Source: a virus
Length of the DNA: 64,000 nt
Virus record (IMG/VR): IMGVR_UViG_3300030430_005214
Span: 1-64,000 of that record
Strand: one strand, 5' to 3'
Shown: positions 15,110 through 60,979 of the stretch, in pieces
Position numbering within the stretch: the stretch's first letter is position 1
Layout of the letters: every line of letters begins with the position of its first letter
Notes under the pieces: generated by a model
What the model was told of the DNA's origin: nothing
Databases searched by the model: none
Seen by the model: only the letters and a program-made list of their open reading frames with translations
Position numbers and translations under genes: made by a program

Positions 15110-18100
15110 TCAAATCATAATGTGCGCGAACCCCTCTTTTTTATCTATTGTGATTTGCTGGTCCACACAATCTTTAAGATGGTCAAGATGTGATATCAAA
15201 ATGACCGTTTTAAAGTATGTCTTAATTAGTTCTAAAATTGAAATAAAACCATCCATATTCTCGGCATCTAACGCAGTCCCTGGTTCATCAAGAATAAAGA
15301 TGTTGGACTTTGGAAGAGATGAGACGGATAGAAGGGCAAGCCGGATTGCCATGGCAGCTAGTGTCTTTTCCGCGCCTGAGCCCATTTCTATTGGTCGTCT
15401 ATCATACTTTGGATGCTTAATAAAAATATTAAGTCTTTTTTCTTCTGCCTCAAAGAATATCTCAAAGTCGACAACATTAGCTAAGATACGAGACATTTCA
15501 TCATTGATAATAGGCAATTTCTTTTTAATGATGTCATAAGCTATGCCATTGGGGTGCATACACTTCATTAGCAGGTCAAAAGCTGTAATCTCATTTTGCA
15601 GATTGTGCAGCCATTCTTTCTTTTCTTGTAATGTTTGCACTTGTTGTGCTAATGAGCCATTTTCTCTATGTAAGCCTAATAACTCAGTGCGGCATTTATC
15701 TATACTTTTCTGTTTCTTGGCTATGTCTTTGGTTACATTTGTTAACTGCAGGATAAAAGTTTCCTTATTCTCAATAAGACTTTTATTTTTATTATAATCA
15801 TCAATCAGTATATTGATACGCTGTAATTCGTTTTGTGCTGAAAGTGCAGAGTTTTCCCATTTGCCTTTTTCAAGATCTGTTTTCAAAACAACTCGTTCAG
15901 CTTCTCTTCTTTTCTCCATTAGTTTTTTATAGTTTTCCAAATGAGAATTTATTTTTTCTTCATTTGATCTATTTAAAAGTCTTTCTGCTTTTTCTTTTTC
16001 ATTGTTTATTGATTGAACTTGGCCCACAAGATCAACGAGTGTTTCTTTCGAGCAATGCGCATCTTTAATAAACTTGCAAGATTTAAACTTGTCTCCGCAT
16101 GGAACCTCACCAAGAAGTTTAACTTTTTTCTCATTTAGTTCTTTAAGTTTTTCAGCATTTTCTAGTTCTGTTACAAGATTGCTTATTTTAAGAAGTTTTT
16201 CATCTATTTCGTCTTTTTGATTTTTAACAGAGACAACATCAAATGAAGCTTCAAACTTCGCTATTTTATCTAAAAGTTCGTTTTTTTCAGCAAGTATTAT
16301 ATTGCAATTATCGACATTGGAATTGTATGTAGATATATCTTGTTCTTGTTTATTTCTATCTTTTAAAACTTCGCATATATCAACCACTTCTGCTGGAATA
16401 GAATCTATCTTTGTTTCCAAATCTTTTTTGTCGAGCTGCAAAGACATTAGCTCTTCATTTAAGCTTTCACACATTTCGTTTTGTTCAGTAATTTTATTTT
16501 CAGAAAACATCATTTGTTTTTCTATTTCATATATCTCACTGTCATAATCTATATCTTCTGCTTTGCGGAGTGCGCCTCGAAGATCTGCAGCTTCATCCTT
16601 AATGAGTTTGTACTTTCTTTCAAAAAACTGAAGATCAAGAAACTTTGCTAGCGCCTCTTTTCTTTTTGTAGAACCCTCATTGATGAAACGAAGAGAATCT
16701 ATCTGTGATGACATGGAGGTCATTAAAAAGTCATCAACATTTCCAAAATGATTTCTAATGATAGCATCAGTTTCATTTCTAGTTGTGCCGTTTAGAATAG
16801 TCTCTTCATCGGTAACAAGATCTCTTACTTTAAACAAAATATCTGTTTTTGCTTCTAGTGTTTCTTCGCCTTTTAGCTTTTTAACATACTTTTCGCTTTT
16901 ACGATCTATTGTATATCGCTTGTGTCCAACATCAATAGTGACTATTCCATCAGCTTCCTCTTTGTTTTGGTTGATAATATTGAGATTTTTGCGTTCGTTT
17001 TTGCTTGTAGAATTAAAAACAGTATACAACATACTGTCAATAACGGAAGACTTACCAGAAAAGTTTTTACCAAAAATACCAACAATACCATTTAACTTAT
17101 CAAAATCTATGGAGTTGCCTTCACCATAATTAAATAAGTTATTCCAATGCATTGTACGTAAGTTCCAGTTAATGTTTCGCTGAACATCTTCTTTCTCTGC
17201 TAAGGTAGCATTACATTTGCGATTTAACTTAAAGACTGCTTCTAGCTGTTCATCTGTAGGTTCAAAGTCTTTAAGATATTCTTTGATAAGCTTTTCTTGT
17301 ACGGTAACGTCGCGTAGGTTTTCTTCTACATCATCAGTTGCCAAGTCCTCTACGTTACCTCGCTGGCCAGCCGAGCGATTAAGATATCCAATACTCTCTG
17401 GTTTAAATTTGTGTTTAGCTGCATCCATAGCACGTTTCATTGTACTGACGGGTAAACTGTTTTCTGATACTAACCGTATTCGAGCACCAAGGGGGCACTC
17501 AACATTCTTGGGTAGGCGCCCAGTTCTTGTCAAATTGATAGTGACAAAAGGTTTTGGATTTGGAATTACGACGTGCTTAACCGTAAAGTTTTCTTTGTCT
17601 TGAATATCCCATATAAGAAAACCTTTATCATTCGTCTCTCCGAAGTTCTGCTGAACAGTAGAACCTGGATACCGGATCTTTCCTGCGTCGTCTAGTGCTT
17701 GATTTGTTTTATGGATGTCGCCTAAAAAGGCGTAGTCGAATTCGTCAAAGATCGATATCTCGTTTTCTCCGTGCTGCATTGTCCAGCCGACATCCGTGCG
17801 GCAATTTGAAATAGACCCGTGATACAAACCAATGTTAATAACATTATAGTCGGTAGGATCTCTCCAATTATCTCTATCAAATACGCTAAGAACGTTGAGA
17901 CATATTTCTTCATTTATTTTTACCTCTCCGCTATTCTTCAATAAGAAGAGGTTTGGAAGATCCAAAGCTTCAACTATTGGAGTAATAGCATCTTCTCGGC
18001 TACTATTTTTCAAGTTGCCGTCATGGTTTCCAAGTATTATATAGGTCGGTGCAACAGAATTTAACCCACTTAGGAATTCTGAGCACAGTTTTACAAACTC

Positions 18101-18268
18101 TGGAGAGATGTTTGTCTTGGAGTGTGCAATGTCTCCGCAGTGAACAATGTAATCCACCTTCTCTTCACGTAAATGCTCGAAAAGCTTAGAGAAAACCTCA
18201 CGATATTCTGTGTGGTATTTTAGATTTTTTATGTGCGTGTCTGCGATATGGGCGATTTTATAGCTCAT
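15110..18268 (-). CDS. Fused SbcD (Mre11-like nuclease) and SbcC (Rad50-like ATPase), gp47-gp46 fusion
   Basis: 1052 residues in one frame. Residues 1-240 are a calcineurin-type nuclease: HIADTH (Asp10, His12), HCGDIAH (Asp46), GNHD (80-83), YHG (His150), GDIHK (Asp184, His186). A link of about 120 residues follows. Residues 370-1052 form an SMC-like ATPase: Walker A GKNFSGKSS (400-408), two long coiled coils either side of a Cys-containing hook (C724, C731, C739), signature GSGAEKT (963-969), Walker B FILDEP (991-996) and His1027. In T4 gp47 and gp46 are separate proteins that resect DNA ends for recombination-dependent replication. Here one polypeptide makes both, in 1:1 ratio. The start at 18268 overlaps the primase end by 11 bases and has GGAG upstream. 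Confidence 0.93.
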   Translation of the reverse strand: MSYKIAHIADTHIKNLKYHTEYREVFSKLFEHLREEKVDYIVHCGDIAHSKTNISPEFVKLCSEFLSGLNSVAPTYIILGNHDGNLKNSSREDAITPIVEALDLPNLFLLKNSGEVKINEEICLNVLSVFDRDNWRDPTDYNVINIGLYHGSISNCRTDVGWTMQHGENEISIFDEFDYAFLGDIHKTNQALDDAGKIRYPGSTVQQNFGETNDKGFLIWDIQDKENFTVKHVVIPNPKPFVTINLTRTGRLPKNVECPLGARIRLVSENSLPVSTMKRAMDAAKHKFKPESIGYLNRSAGQRGNVEDLATDDVEENLRDVTVQEKLIKEYLKDFEPTDEQLEAVFKLNRKCNATLAEKEDVQRNINWNLRTMHWNNLFNYGEGNSIDFDKLNGIVGIFGKNFSGKSSVIDSMLYTVFNSTSKNERKNLNIINQNKEEADGIVTIDVGHKRYTIDRKSEKYVKKLKGEETLEAKTDILFKVRDLVTDEETILNGTTRNETDAIIRNHFGNVDDFLMTSMSSQIDSLRFINEGSTKRKEALAKFLDLQFFERKYKLIKDEAADLRGALRKAEDIDYDSEIYEIEKQMMFSENKITEQNEMCESLNEELMSLQLDKKDLETKIDSIPAEVVDICEVLKDRNKQEQDISTYNSNVDNCNIILAEKNELLDKIAKFEASFDVVSVKNQKDEIDEKLLKISNLVTELENAEKLKELNEKKVKLLGEVPCGDKFKSCKFIKDAHCSKETLVDLVGQVQSINNEKEKAERLLNRSNEEKINSHLENYKKLMEKRREAERVVLKTDLEKGKWENSALSAQNELQRINILIDDYNKNKSLIENKETFILQLTNVTKDIAKKQKSIDKCRTELLGLHRENGSLAQQVQTLQEKKEWLHNLQNEITAFDLLMKCMHPNGIAYDIIKKKLPIINDEMSRILANVVDFEIFFEAEEKRLNIFIKHPKYDRRPIEMGSGAEKTLAAMAIRLALLSVSSLPKSNIFILDEPGTALDAENMDGFISILELIKTYFKTVILISHLDHLKDCVDQQITIDKKEGFAHIMI

Positions 18269-19184
18269 TCATACTCCAATAAATATTAAATATACTTTCT
18301 AGATCGATCCGTGATGCCTCTTGTTTTAATTCCTCTGCCTCTGTTTTCGTAATAGATCCGATGTCTTCTATTTCAGAAGTGTCCAATTTATAGACATCTA
18401 ATCCATACTCAAGAAGCAAAGATATAATTTTCATTGATTTATTTAAGGCATCTTCGTCTAAACCAATGTAAACTTTTGTTTGTTTTTCAACAATCTTTTT
18501 AAATAACTTTGTTGTTTCTTTTAGGGTCGATCCCAATATAGGAATAGAATTTTTCATCTTTATAGAATCAAATGGACCTTCTACTAAAGTTATTGGCTCA
18601 TTCCAGTTAATCAAAAGATCATTAAAAATAATATTTTTTGACGCTGGAGGGTTTTTATAAGACAACCAATCACCACTATATGACCTAGCTGTAAAATAAT
18701 TACAATTACCCTCATCGTCAAAGGACGGTATTATTATACGCTTTTTATACTTTCCTGTCAAGCAAAATCCTATCTTGTGATACAATATATCTTTTTGTCC
18801 AATACCTCTAGACCACAAATAAGATATAGCCTCATTAGCAGCAGCAGGTAAATCTTTTTTTGCTAAACACATATATTCCGAGGGCAGCTTGACAGGCGGC
18901 AGCTTTTCTTCTGGTTGATTAAAAATCAAATCCATTGTAGAAAAATCGACTTCTTGATCTAGAAGCGCCCAATCGTGACGGTCATCTATTGTTCCAAAGC
19001 GTTTTATAAGATAAGATATTGCACCTTTTGTATCACAAACCCAACACTTAAAAAAACCTTTGGTCACATTGACTGATAGTTTCTTTTTATGGTGTTTACA
19101 AAAGGGACAATGATAAAGTGTTTCATCTCTTGAATCATATCCAGACCCAAGGACTTCTCGTAATATATTTTTTTTATTTCTCAT
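18258..19184 (-). CDS. DNA primase, DnaG-type with zinc ribbon and TOPRIM domain
   Basis: 308 residues. The zinc ribbon has HCPFC (Cys26, Cys29) and CWVC (Cys47, Cys50). A central domain (about 100-185) follows, then a TOPRIM fold: TLVEGPFDSIK (199-209; Glu202, Asp206) and GLDEDA (241-246; Asp243, Asp245). It should make RNA primers for lagging-strand synthesis; T4 gp61 is the functional counterpart and similar in size (342). The C-terminal helicase-binding domain of DnaG is absent, as expected for phage. The start forms an ATGA overlap with the YkuK-like gene, and its end overlaps the SbcD-SbcC start, so all four recombination/replication genes are coupled. Confidence 0.88.
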   Translation of the reverse strand: MRNKKNILREVLGSGYDSRDETLYHCPFCKHHKKKLSVNVTKGFFKCWVCDTKGAISYLIKRFGTIDDRHDWALLDQEVDFSTMDLIFNQPEEKLPPVKLPSEYMCLAKKDLPAAANEAISYLWSRGIGQKDILYHKIGFCLTGKYKKRIIIPSFDDEGNCNYFTARSYSGDWLSYKNPPASKNIIFNDLLINWNEPITLVEGPFDSIKMKNSIPILGSTLKETTKLFKKIVEKQTKVYIGLDEDALNKSMKIISLLLEYGLDVYKLDTSEIEDIGSITKTEAEELKQEASRIDLESIFNIYWSMNEL

Positions 19185-19642
19185 TTGGAATGTTTGTCTG
19201 CGACTACTGAAGCTGCAAAAGAATCAGGCTTGATTTTACAAGCAAATCCAGATCCAACTGCGTAGCCTACTAGCATTTTAGCCATAGGTGAGGTTCTATT
19301 ATTACATTCTTCTGGTGAAATGTCAATATGTATTTCTACATTTGTTGATGGACACAGTTCTGTTATTTTCATGGCCATGTTTATTGATTTCTCTGCTTCT
19401 TTAAGAATGCGATTGTAAAATCTATCAGGGTCATTATACTTTTCTATTTTATAAAAGTAAAGACCTCCTTTCTGATTTTCTGCACCAATAAGGACGATGG
19501 TGGTTGTAAATGTGCATTTTCCCGTTTTTACATGAGAATCTGTGCCTACAATTACTTGTCCTTTGTTCTTATTATGAGATTTAATTTTTTGTGTAATGTC
19601 GAAAAAGTTTATGGATTTACCTGCGCCGGTAGTCCAGTTCAT
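19181..19642 (-). CDS. YkuK-family (DUF458) RNase H-like protein
   Basis: 153 residues, close to the whole length of Bacillus YkuK. Family blocks are VIVGTDSH (about 30-37), the HIDIS strand (105-109), an RTSPMAK region, and the C-terminal KIKPDSFAASVVADKHSK (136-153). The family has a predicted RNase H fold with Asp residues at the ends of strands; its substrate is not established to my knowledge. Here it is fused in operon terms (ATGA overlaps on both sides) with a RuvC-like resolvase and a primase, which suggests a nucleic-acid role such as RNA primer removal or junction processing. That function is inference; family membership is clear. Confidence 0.85.
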   Translation of the reverse strand: MNWTTGAGKSINFFDITQKIKSHNKNKGQVIVGTDSHVKTGKCTFTTTIVLIGAENQKGGLYFYKIEKYNDPDRFYNRILKEAEKSINMAMKITELCPSTNVEIHIDISPEECNNRTSPMAKMLVGYAVGSGFACKIKPDSFAASVVADKHSK

Positions 19643-20151
19643 TTAAGCCCTGCCTTTGCTACTACTATTGCATCAGCAATATCAAAATATTTTGGTCGGG
19701 GATTACCCTTGTGAGTATATTCTACACTAAAATCAGGGCAGTTGTCAAGCACCCATTGTAATATTTGTTTCTTTGTATCTTTACCCTTTTGAACTTTTAT
19801 TTCATTAAGTTTTCGCGCTTGCTGGGCAGTAAAGTAGATTGGTTGATGCTTGAACGTCTCATAACATATCCAAGAGATTGTACCATTAAACTTTTGCAAA
19901 GCTGCCATAGTTTTTGCCGTTGAACCTCCGGATCCAAAAAACATAAAAGGTTTCTCTATAAATACTTTCTGAATTGGGTATTGAACTTTTATTTCTTGCA
20001 GTCCATCTTTGACGTGCTGAACTTTGTCAAAAAAAGTTTCAAACTTATTTTTATTTCTTGTATCCCAAACTCCAGAGCGAATTATCTCTCCTTCTCCGTC
20101 CAAGATACAAAAACCAGTTATGCTGGTGCTTATATCTAATCCTAATATCAT
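19639..20151 (-). CDS. RuvC-like Holliday junction resolvase
   Basis: 170 residues with the RuvC/RNase H acidic set: GLDIS (Asp6), FIEKPF (Glu66), and YFDIADAI (Asp157, Asp160). Length and spacing match RuvC (about 170). It would cut four-way junctions and branched DNA before packaging, a task done in T4 by the unrelated endonuclease VII (gp49). It has AAAGGAAA before ATG and overlaps the YkuK-like gene by 4 bases (ATGA). A glycine-rich insertion GSGGSTAK (73-80) follows the second motif, as in many phage RuvC-like proteins. Confidence 0.85.
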   Translation of the reverse strand: MILGLDISTSITGFCILDGEGEIIRSGVWDTRNKNKFETFFDKVQHVKDGLQEIKVQYPIQKVFIEKPFMFFGSGGSTAKTMAALQKFNGTISWICYETFKHQPIYFTAQQARKLNEIKVQKGKDTKKQILQWVLDNCPDFSVEYTHKGNPRPKYFDIADAIVVAKAGLK

Positions 20152-58481: not shown

Positions 58482-59321
58482 TTATTCTTCGCTAATTGCG
58501 CGACCTTTAAGTTGTTCCCAATCTCGTTCGGGTCTAACCTCTAAATTTTTACCCCAAGTAGATTTTAATACCATCGGGTTTACATCAACTTTTTCAGCAA
58601 AGCTGATTAGAGCGTTAACATCTTTTGGAAAACAAGAACCTCCAAAGCCGAACTTACCGTCTGGACCTGGGGAGCTAAAATGAGTTCTCCCTATTCTTTG
58701 ATCGTAAAGACCATACTCTACTACTTTATCATAATCTACGTTAATTTTTTCACATATTTGTCTAATTTCATTAGAAAAACTAACTTTTGTGGCCAAAAAG
58801 CAGTTAGTAAAATACTTTACCATTTCTGCAGTGTTTGAACCAGTCTTTATAATAGATGCTGATGGATAGCATTTTCTATAGAGATTTTTCACTTTTGTTG
58901 TTCCTGGTCTTGGGCCTCCGATGATAACTCTATTTTGATTTTTAAAATCATCAATAAAGTTTGCCTCCGTTAGAAACTCAGGGTTAAAAATAACTTGTAA
59001 GTTTTGGCACTCCTTGTTAAATTTTTCTGTTGTTCCGGGTAAAACGGTTGACTTTATAACAGCAATATTGTTATTGTTAAAAGAATTTAATTTATAGATT
59101 GTGTTTGAAACTATTGATAAATCACATTCTCCATTTTTTCTCATCGGTGTTGGCAAACAAACAAATATTATTTCTGCTTTTTCGCTTAATTCTTCTAAAG
59201 AGTTGCAAGTTGATTGTTTAAATTTATCATAAGTTTCAATATTAACAAAATTTTTAAAGCCTTCTCGTATCGCCGTGCCGACAAAACCTTGTCCGATTAC
59301 CCCAATAGTATTATTGTCCAC
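58482..59321 (-). CDS. UDP-sugar 6-dehydrogenase, WbpA/Ugd family, short form (GTG start)
   Basis: 279 residues, GTG start at 59321 with GAGGAG upstream. N-terminal NAD fold: VIGQGFVG (8-15), KSTVLPGTT (90-98). Central domain: FNPEFLTEA (112-120), MVKYFTN (167-173; Lys169) and GFGGSCFPKD (225-234) with the catalytic Cys230. It would oxidise the C6 of a UDP-hexose (glucose or GlcNAc) to the uronic acid. Usual members are 390-450 residues; the C-terminal UDP-binding domain is absent, so the protein ends about 45 residues after the catalytic Cys. It is the last gene of the sugar operon, overlapping the epimerase by 11 bases. Confidence 0.88.
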   Translation of the reverse strand: MDNNTIGVIGQGFVGTAIREGFKNFVNIETYDKFKQSTCNSLEELSEKAEIIFVCLPTPMRKNGECDLSIVSNTIYKLNSFNNNNIAVIKSTVLPGTTEKFNKECQNLQVIFNPEFLTEANFIDDFKNQNRVIIGGPRPGTTKVKNLYRKCYPSASIIKTGSNTAEMVKYFTNCFLATKVSFSNEIRQICEKINVDYDKVVEYGLYDQRIGRTHFSSPGPDGKFGFGGSCFPKDVNALISFAEKVDVNPMVLKSTWGKNLEVRPERDWEQLKGRAISEE

Positions 59322-60174
59322 CTTTCAACTCCTCAAAACAATTGTTTATTCCTGCTTGGATTCCAACTTTAGCTTTCCACCCAAGATCTCTTAAAGGACC
59401 AATATCTGCCTTGGTTAACATAACATCGCCTTTTCTATTCTCAACATAATCAAATTTTAAATCAGGAAAATGATTTTGAATTATTTGTTTAATTTCATTT
59501 AACGAAATATTGCTACCGGTGCCGACATCAAAGTTTTGTCCACAAAAATCTTGTGTATACTCCATTGCAAAGATATTTGCACTAACAACATCAGATACAT
59601 GCACCATATCTCTTCTTTGCTCTCCATCGCCAGTAATATAAGGTGTTTTGTTTTCTCTTATTGTTTTCATCCAACTAGCAATAGCGGTTGCATAAGGTCC
59701 ATCTGCTTTCTGATCTTCTGAATATACATTAAAGTATCGTAAAGACACTGTATCAACGCCGTATAAGTCAGCGTACAGTTTACATTCCATTTCCGAAACC
59801 AGCTTTTGTAGTGCATATGGACTTGCAGGGCCGCTGCCGTTTCCAACCACCGAAGAAGAGCTGGAATAGATAACTCTTTTTGCGCCCATATGCTTGGCAA
59901 AGTTTAAAACATTGCTAGCCGCTAGTACATTGTTTTCCATGGTCAGTATCGGATTTTCAACACTATACGCCACGCGGGGAAAACAAGCTAAATGAAAAAT
60001 GTATTCTGGTTTAAAATTAAAATAAGCCGGATGAAATTTTTCTCTTAAATCATTCAGGATATTATGATCTTCAACAAGATCGATGCCCATGACTTCGTGA
60101 CCCAAATCTTTTAACTTTTTATACAAGTGAGAGCCAATATACCCTTTGTGTCCCGTTACTAAACATTTAGCCAT
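59311..60174 (-). CDS. NAD-dependent sugar epimerase (extended SDR, GalE/WbpP-like)
   Basis: 287 residues. NAD motif GHKGYIG (8-14), SSSSSV (104-109) and the SDR catalytic pair in SPYALQK (118-124; Tyr120, Lys124). LRYFNVYSEDQ (145-155) and a C-terminal MVHVSDV fit the UDP-glucose/UDP-GlcNAc 4-epimerase group. Family members are usually 310-340 residues, so it is slightly short. It would interconvert UDP-glucose/galactose type sugars, or 4-epimerise the GlcNAc derivative feeding the uronic acid route. The exact substrate cannot be fixed from sequence. It is packed between the aminotransferase and the dehydrogenase. Confidence 0.88.
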   Translation of the reverse strand: MAKCLVTGHKGYIGSHLYKKLKDLGHEVMGIDLVEDHNILNDLREKFHPAYFNFKPEYIFHLACFPRVAYSVENPILTMENNVLAASNVLNFAKHMGAKRVIYSSSSSVVGNGSGPASPYALQKLVSEMECKLYADLYGVDTVSLRYFNVYSEDQKADGPYATAIASWMKTIRENKTPYITGDGEQRRDMVHVSDVVSANIFAMEYTQDFCGQNFDVGTGSNISLNEIKQIIQNHFPDLKFDYVENRKGDVMLTKADIGPLRDLGWKAKVGIQAGINNCFEELKGGQ

Positions 60175-60175
60175 T

Positions 60176-60979
60176 TTATTTCCTCTCTCTAATACTTTTT
60201 GCTACTTGTTCTGAAATTGGACAATCTCCAGTAATGCCAAGTTTTTTATATATCGGCTGGTCGTATACAACTCTTGGATAGTGTCCTTTTTCGGGTCCTC
60301 TTAATCCTAACTCTGCTTTTACACCAGTCATATGTAATTTCATTTGTTCTAGAGCCATCAAGCACAAGGGCTCTGCTAGTCTAAAATTAAAGCCTATATA
60401 TTCGTGATTATATTTTCCTACTTGACCTTGATCGCATATAGATCTAATTTTCTTATGATCAAGTTTCGATCCTTTTGGGATGCATATCATTCCACCTTCA
60501 AACGTAGATATGTTTTTGGTTTTGTAAAAAGAAAACGTTCCACAATCAGCCAGCATTCCTGCAAATTTACCACAATGACATTCGGCACCAAAAGCTTGAG
60601 CCGTATCTTCAATAACAACAAGGTCATGTTTTTTTGCGATCTCGTTTATTTTCTCCATTTCACACACCCTACCGTATAGGTGAACTGGTATGATTGCTTT
60701 TGTTTTGGGAGTTATTGCAGCCTCTATTTTTTTAGGATCTAACAAATATGTGTTTGGGTCTATATCGACGAATACTGGTTTTGCACCAGCAATTAATATT
60801 GCATTACTAGTGGCTATAAAAGTAAAAGGAGTTGTGATTACTTCATCTCCTGGTTGTAAATCTAGTGACCACAAAGGAGCGATTAGGGCTGCTGTGCCAT
60901 TATTGACAGCTATACAATCTTCTAGATCAAATCTCTCTTTTACATATTCTTCAAATATATTTCTAATAACTACCGGCAT
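60176..60979 (-). CDS. DegT/DnrJ/EryC1-type PLP aminotransferase, compact form
   Basis: 267 residues against 360-390 for the family. Conserved parts: NNGTAALIAPLWSL (26-39), GDEVITTPFTF (44-54), VHLYGR (99-104), EDTAQAFGAE (124-133), and SFYKTKNISTFEGG (150-163) with the PLP lysine, probably Lys155. After LEQMK (210-214) the sequence jumps to a family-like end (HYPRVVYDQPIYKKLG, then CPISEQVAKSI), so about 80-100 residues of the small domain and the last 30 residues are missing. The N-terminus also starts about 25 residues late, directly after the preceding stop. It should transaminate the 3-keto-sugar (as WbpE), but these losses put activity in question. Confidence 0.85.
   Translation of the reverse strand: MPVVIRNIFEEYVKERFDLEDCIAVNNGTAALIAPLWSLDLQPGDEVITTPFTFIATSNAILIAGAKPVFVDIDPNTYLLDPKKIEAAITPKTKAIIPVHLYGRVCEMEKINEIAKKHDLVVIEDTAQAFGAECHCGKFAGMLADCGTFSFYKTKNISTFEGGMICIPKGSKLDHKKIRSICDQGQVGKYNHEYIGFNFRLAEPLCLMALEQMKLHMTGVKAELGLRGPEKGHYPRVVYDQPIYKKLGITGDCPISEQVAKSIRERK

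Follow-up and report, generated by a model that had tools for sequence, protein, structure and literature searches.

A predicted single-chain SbcD-SbcC (Mre11-Rad50) enzyme of the R555-like fused kind in a tailed phage

The locus and its genomic setting

The stretch of DNA analysed here (the window) comprises 64,000 nucleotides, namely positions 1 to 64,000 of the IMG/VR virus record IMGVR_UViG_3300030430_005214, which is 104,242 bases long. The genes and signals around the gene under study are the following, in window coordinates:

15110..18268, minus strand: fused SbcD-SbcC (Mre11-Rad50) gene, 1052 aa (open reading frame, Pfam, PHROG, AlphaFold2 model, PDB matches)
18274..18277, minus strand: GGAG, which probably serves the fused gene as ribosome-binding site (sequence)
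18258..19184, minus strand: primase-like gene adjoining the fused gene on its upstream side and overlapping its start (PHROG_47, E 1.7e-39)
19181..19642, minus strand: RNase H-like gene (PF04308) of the same operon, with 4-nt overlaps (Pfam; found in only 5 loci)
19639..20151, minus strand: RuvC-like Holliday junction resolvase gene of the same operon (PHROG_159)

The fused gene starts with an ATG, with the GGAG lying 6-9 nt upstream, and short overlaps connect the successive RuvC-like, RNase H-like, primase-like and SbcDC genes. Among the 90 related loci with enough sequence, a primase relative is found upstream in 86 and RuvC in 81. Portal, large terminase and baseplate wedge proteins are present, which makes it probable that the phage is contractile-tailed; no RecA-family gene was detected in the 104-kb record, itself a fragment, and the same record holds neither a second copy of the fusion nor a second AAA_23/SbcC-type ATPase. 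Elsewhere in the window (58482-60979) lie genes resembling those of UDP-glucose dehydrogenase and an aminotransferase, which suggest sugar metabolism or the modification of surface sugars.

A single open reading frame

The Pfam families Metallophos (residues 4-99) and Metallophos_2 (4-224) cover the N-terminal part of the protein and AAA_23/SMC_N (375-1043) the remainder, while the PHROG models for SbcD and SbcC extend over residues 2-347 and 186-1047, respectively. At the level of sequence and predicted structure, it is confirmed that the 1052-codon gene encodes both enzymes in full in one chain, the SbcD/Mre11 nuclease preceding the SbcC/Rad50 ATPase; the single-chain fusion described in an earlier note on this DNA is genuine, and the 1:1 stoichiometry also put forward there holds as a trivial consequence of it.

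Scans of IMG/VR returned 35 loci with the protein as query and, with an alignment as query, the best 80 of 584 confirmed relatives. Of the loci retrieved, 103 carry one open frame reaching from residue 10 or earlier to residue 1040 or later. The conservation counts given below rest on 95 distinct full-length aligned proteins, whose identity to the window protein is in many cases 47-55% and mostly about 50%. That a sequencing or assembly error might have erased a stop codon, the real phage having two genes as T4 and related cyanophages do, can be given next to no credence, because the 103 loci, coming from many independent assemblies and often only about 50% identical, all keep one open frame; moreover, the junction has neither a conserved start codon nor a ribosome-binding site. 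Across the 145-codon junction the other two frames contain 8 and 15 stops.

An internal start could in principle add a separate SbcC chain to the full fusion, and an ATG is indeed present at residue 373, close to the start of the Rad50 fold. This position, however, is ATG/Met in 10 of the 95 relatives and any start codon in 18, is not preceded by a Shine-Dalgarno sequence, and already lies within the first Rad50 strand of the AlphaFold2 model, and synonymous sites at 340-380 display no excess conservation; separate proteins from such a start are therefore very unlikely on sequence grounds.

Outside IMG/VR, no full-length fused relative was found in the plasmid collection, the best match being a split Vibrio pair, and genome contigs yielded four good relatives, all on contigs labelled as metagenome-assembled genomes; these, at least the short contigs, are probably binned phage. 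The relative from Vibrio phage 1.031.O, used as query, retrieved no IMG/VR loci.

The nuclease and the segment that follows it

The N-terminal third of the protein is composed of the following parts:

17564..18268, minus strand: Mre11/SbcD nuclease domain, residues 1-235 (Pfam, conservation, structure alignment)
17369..17560, minus strand: Mre11 capping domain, residues 237-300 (AlphaFold2 model; VIA alignment to Mre11/SbcD chains through about residue 300)
17192..17314, minus strand: Rad50-binding helix-loop-helix, residues 319-359, with helices 321-335 and 339-359 (alignment to the T4 gp47 C-terminus, AlphaFold2, VIA)
17171..17191, minus strand: actual linker, residues 360-366 (helix-loop-helix ends at 359, Rad50 fold begins at 366-368)

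The metallophosphatase nuclease has its conserved ligands, with one His replaced by Asp: D10, H12, D46, H49, N81, H82, H150, D184 and H186 are identical in 95/95 relatives, one metal ligand of motif V being an Asp where His is usual (GDIH instead of GHxH) and invariant in the family. The nuclease and ATPase motifs reported in the earlier note are thus present and conserved, except for this one ligand. In a first sample the motif-V Asp occurred in 12/12 fused and 0/8 split proteins; a strict link between fusion and the Asp was nevertheless rejected, since the fusions of YerA41, PAU and Carin-5 keep GHIH. The invariant Asp may imply a use of metal that differs from that of the textbook enzymes.

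Structural inferences rely on two AlphaFold2 monomer models, one for the whole chain (pLDDT 77.5) and one for residues 1-368 (pLDDT 81.8). The latter aligns by VIA with Mre11/SbcD chains at Z ~20-24, and in the predicted structure the nuclease extends to about residue 235 and the capping domain from 237 to 300, a poorly predicted stretch (300-314) preceding the two helices 321-335 and 339-359. In sequence these helices align with the C-terminus of T4 gp47 and of related proteins; with several chains whose C-terminal part has been solved (3tho_B, 6s85_B, 7yzp_B, 7yzo_A, 6s6v_A) the range aligned by VIA reaches model residues 357-368, in some cases at high rmsd, the helices being hinged. When the full model is aligned with solved Rad50 chains (Z ~26), their residue 1 falls on model residue 366-368. 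The two domains are indeed separated, as had been noted, by about 130 residues rather than about 120 (the nuclease fold ends at about 235 and the Rad50 fold begins at about 367), and judged from sequence alignment and models this interval consists of the capping domain and the C-terminal helix-loop-helix that are usual for Mre11, leaving a true linker of about 7 residues.

In Mre11 the C-terminal helix-loop-helix normally grips the base of the Rad50 coiled coil. The mechanism proposed in the earlier note, according to which the linker takes the place of this docking and the covalent connection alone joins nuclease and ATPase, has in its favour that the two are covalently joined; it is very improbable, and is unsupported, because the segment in question contains a normal capping domain and a conserved, confidently predicted helix-loop-helix that matches gp47 and full Mre11 chains. 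The helix-loop-helix is also kept in most of the fusions described by Yoshida et al. (PMC3175470). Mutual information between the helix-loop-helix and the coiled-coil base was not enriched, a result that carries no information given an alignment of about 67 effective sequences.

The ATPase, the coiled coil and the hook

The remainder of the chain, read from the N-terminal lobe onwards, comprises:

16631..17170, minus strand: Rad50/SbcC ATPase N-lobe, residues 367-546, with Walker A GKNFSGKS (400-407) and Q-loop Q522 (Pfam, structure alignment, conservation)
15479..16630, minus strand: coiled coil, residues 547-930, its two arms, each some 175-195 residues long, flanking the hook (AlphaFold2 secondary structure)
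16061..16105, minus strand: hook apex PCGDKFKSCKFI, residues 722-736, with C724 and C731 (Cx6C, not CxxC) (sequence, conservation in relatives)
15113..15478, minus strand: Rad50/SbcC C-lobe, residues 931-1052, with signature GSGAEKT 963-969, Walker B IFILDEP, D-loop and H1027 (Pfam, structure alignment, conservation)

All the elements of an ABC/SMC ATPase (Walker A, Q-loop, signature, Walker B, D-loop and H-loop) are in place; G400, K406, Q522, S964, G965, E967, K968, D994, E995, D1001 and H1027 are identical in all 95 relatives, residue 407 is Ser in 94 and Thr in one, and position 966 is Ala or Ser. The ABC/SMC part also matches the PADLOC profile of the Lamassu protein LmuB (E 1.5e-20, residues 368-1036), which speaks for a defence-type SMC protein instead of an enzyme of replication or recombination. 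Such an assignment has very little to recommend it: the match is limited to the shared ABC/SMC part, and LmuB is an SMC protein with LmuA/LmuC partners and no Mre11 nuclease of its own, whereas the window protein possesses an entire Mre11 nuclease, capping domain and helix-loop-helix included, and is encoded among primase, RNase H-like and RuvC genes.

The coiled coil is present and its apex departs from the CxxC zinc hook of SbcCD enzymes, the two cysteines being arranged as C724-x6-C731. In Rad50 hooks the CxxC motif is highly conserved (PMC9569753), and a search of the literature for spacing variants such as Cx6C or Cx7C found none. Two cysteines occur in all 95 relatives, with Cx6C in 71, Cx7C in 17 and CxxC in 7; the Cx6C and Cx7C proteins (88/95) display the pattern PCGxxFxxCxFI, and the ordinary CxxC hook is found in Microcystis phage Mel-JY01 and in a 484-kb phage. 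Because the spacing varies inside one family whose CxxC members are otherwise alike, the Cx6C apex is treated as a variant hook and not as a reason for excluding the protein from SbcCD; since all the relatives retain two cysteines, a modified clasp is plausible, and the joining of hooks may differ from that of textbook enzymes. A more far-reaching and rather doubtful proposal is that the marine fused family combines a new hook geometry (the Cx6C/Cx7C apex of most members acting as a wider zinc clasp or a redox switch) with the invariant Asp for a metal-binding His, in which case both end tethering and metal use could differ from those of known Mre11-Rad50.

Relationship to known systems

Fusions of this type are not new, contrary to what the earlier note implied: Mimivirus R555 and twelve further Mre11/Rad50 fusions from bacteria, plasmids, eukaryotes and Bacillus phage 0305phi8-36 were reported by Yoshida, Claverie and Ogata in 2011 (PMC3175470), and many sequenced phages can now be added. 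Most of the 2011 fusions retain the capping and helix-loop-helix regions and a short linker, and metagenomes were taken to show that aquatic viruses, phages among them, abound in R555-like sequences, with scaffolds carrying phage primase genes (PMC3175470). As far as sequence can tell, the window gene fits this fused kind closely: both domains lie in one open frame, nuclease N-terminal and ATPase C-terminal, the capping domain is kept, and the helix-loop-helix is retained up to residue 359, with the Rad50 fold following at 366-368. R555 is reported to have His for the third Asp of GDxxD and Asp for His206 (PMC3175470); by this published description, both substitutions are invariant in the window family (GDIAH, GDIHK). 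The window protein differs from the R555 kind in its setting, a tailed phage with portal, terminase and baseplate wedge, in its linker of about 7 residues against the 9-12 estimated for the 2011 fusions (PMC3175470), and in its Cx6C hook.

With T4 gp47/gp46 and the cyanophage homologues the window protein shares the same domains in the same order and a phage recombination setting, and the C-terminal helix-loop-helix of gp47 aligns with window residues 319-356. The T4 and cyanophage proteins are, however, encoded by two genes and have GHxH in motif V; a related cyanophage-type SbcC (locus L040) has a CxxC hook (CPTC) where the window protein has Cx6C, and T4 gp46 is shorter (560 aa).

Among other sequenced phages, fused genes were recognised by length, full-length matches and domain scans in Microcystis phage Mel-JY01, an uncultured 735-kb phage, Rhizobium RHph_TM61, Tenacibaculum pT24 and Xanthomonas phiXF1, and by length and full-length matches in Escherichia IME392, Vibrio 1.031.O, Acinetobacter vB_AbaM_3098, Thermus phiLo, Chryseobacterium MA9V-1, Sphingomonas PAU and Cobetia Carin-5; T4, cyanophages, Cr30, SIOphi and a Moorella phage have the two-gene form. 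The Mel-JY01 protein (WWT39521.1), annotated only as an AAA domain protein, is fused, 30% identical to the window protein over 99% of the length and likewise has a primase-like gene just upstream, differing in its CxxC-type hook. In RHph_TM61, phiXF1, pT24 and PAU a metallophosphatase and an SMC/ABC part are also joined in one chain, very distant from the window protein, and PAU keeps GHIH where the window protein has GDIH.

The origin of the phage fusions is complicated by a conflict between the two parts of the protein: the nuclease tree allows one fusion change (support 60/39) and the ATPase tree needs two, both with long branches, so that a single origin was not upheld. The ATPase tree, by placing RHph_TM61 and phiXF1 among the two-gene proteins, favours more than one fusion event among phages.

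Several loci display departures from the simple fused arrangement. In the 484-kb phage (LR756508.1; L038, 4500-5640) an insert just after the GDIHKRQK motif interrupts the fused SbcDC gene and carries a 305-aa zinc-finger ORF, possibly homing-endonuclease-like; the insert is probably an intron or an intein. In Rhizobium phage RHph_TM39 (MN988559.1, ~90967-91689) about 720 bases split the fused gene in its nuclease part, and the annotation gives two genes; near-identical sister phages are without the split. In Yersinia phage YerA41 (L133, 1405-4442) the fusion comprises the nuclease and the greater part of the ATPase, the final ATPase lobe being encoded by an overlapping ORF of its own, either by frameshift or by a natural split, Yersinia phage GN1 (L134) having one gene where YerA41 has two ORFs. 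At locus L044 (8150-8359), a partial second C-terminal ATPase lobe (LDEPGTALDAENMDGF...) directly follows a complete fused gene.

Proposed function and significance

The reading we prefer, with a probability of roughly 0.9, is that the gene provides the phage with an Mre11-Rad50 (SbcCD) enzyme of its own, made as a single polypeptide and belonging to the R555-like fused kind abundant in marine phages, which acts in end processing as an M2R2 complex. This role is likely because of what is established for Mre11-Rad50 and T4 gp46/47, as summarised in PMC3175470, the domains being described in PMC13402864. Two chains would dimerise via their nuclease domains and their ATP-sandwiched heads, forming a normal M2R2 complex in which, to judge from the monomer predictions, the helix-loop-helix would still dock on the base of the coiled coil of its own or of the partner chain; ATP binding and hydrolysis would gate Mn-dependent cleavage at DNA ends, and the ends so made could serve recombination-dependent replication and DNA degradation, as with T4 gp46/47. 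The fusion itself would mainly secure co-expression, equal amounts and joint inheritance.

The fusion is thus real, conserved and functional-looking, of a kind known since 2011 and mostly ordinary; its less ordinary points are mainly the variant hook and the Asp of motif V. Long contigs confirm here the inference that Yoshida et al. drew in 2011 from short metagenomic sequences, namely that single-chain Mre11-Rad50 is common in marine phages. A well-conserved family of 95 proteins that could be expressed as one chain may ease structural work on Mre11-Rad50, and its hook variant provides a natural test of the importance of CxxC geometry.
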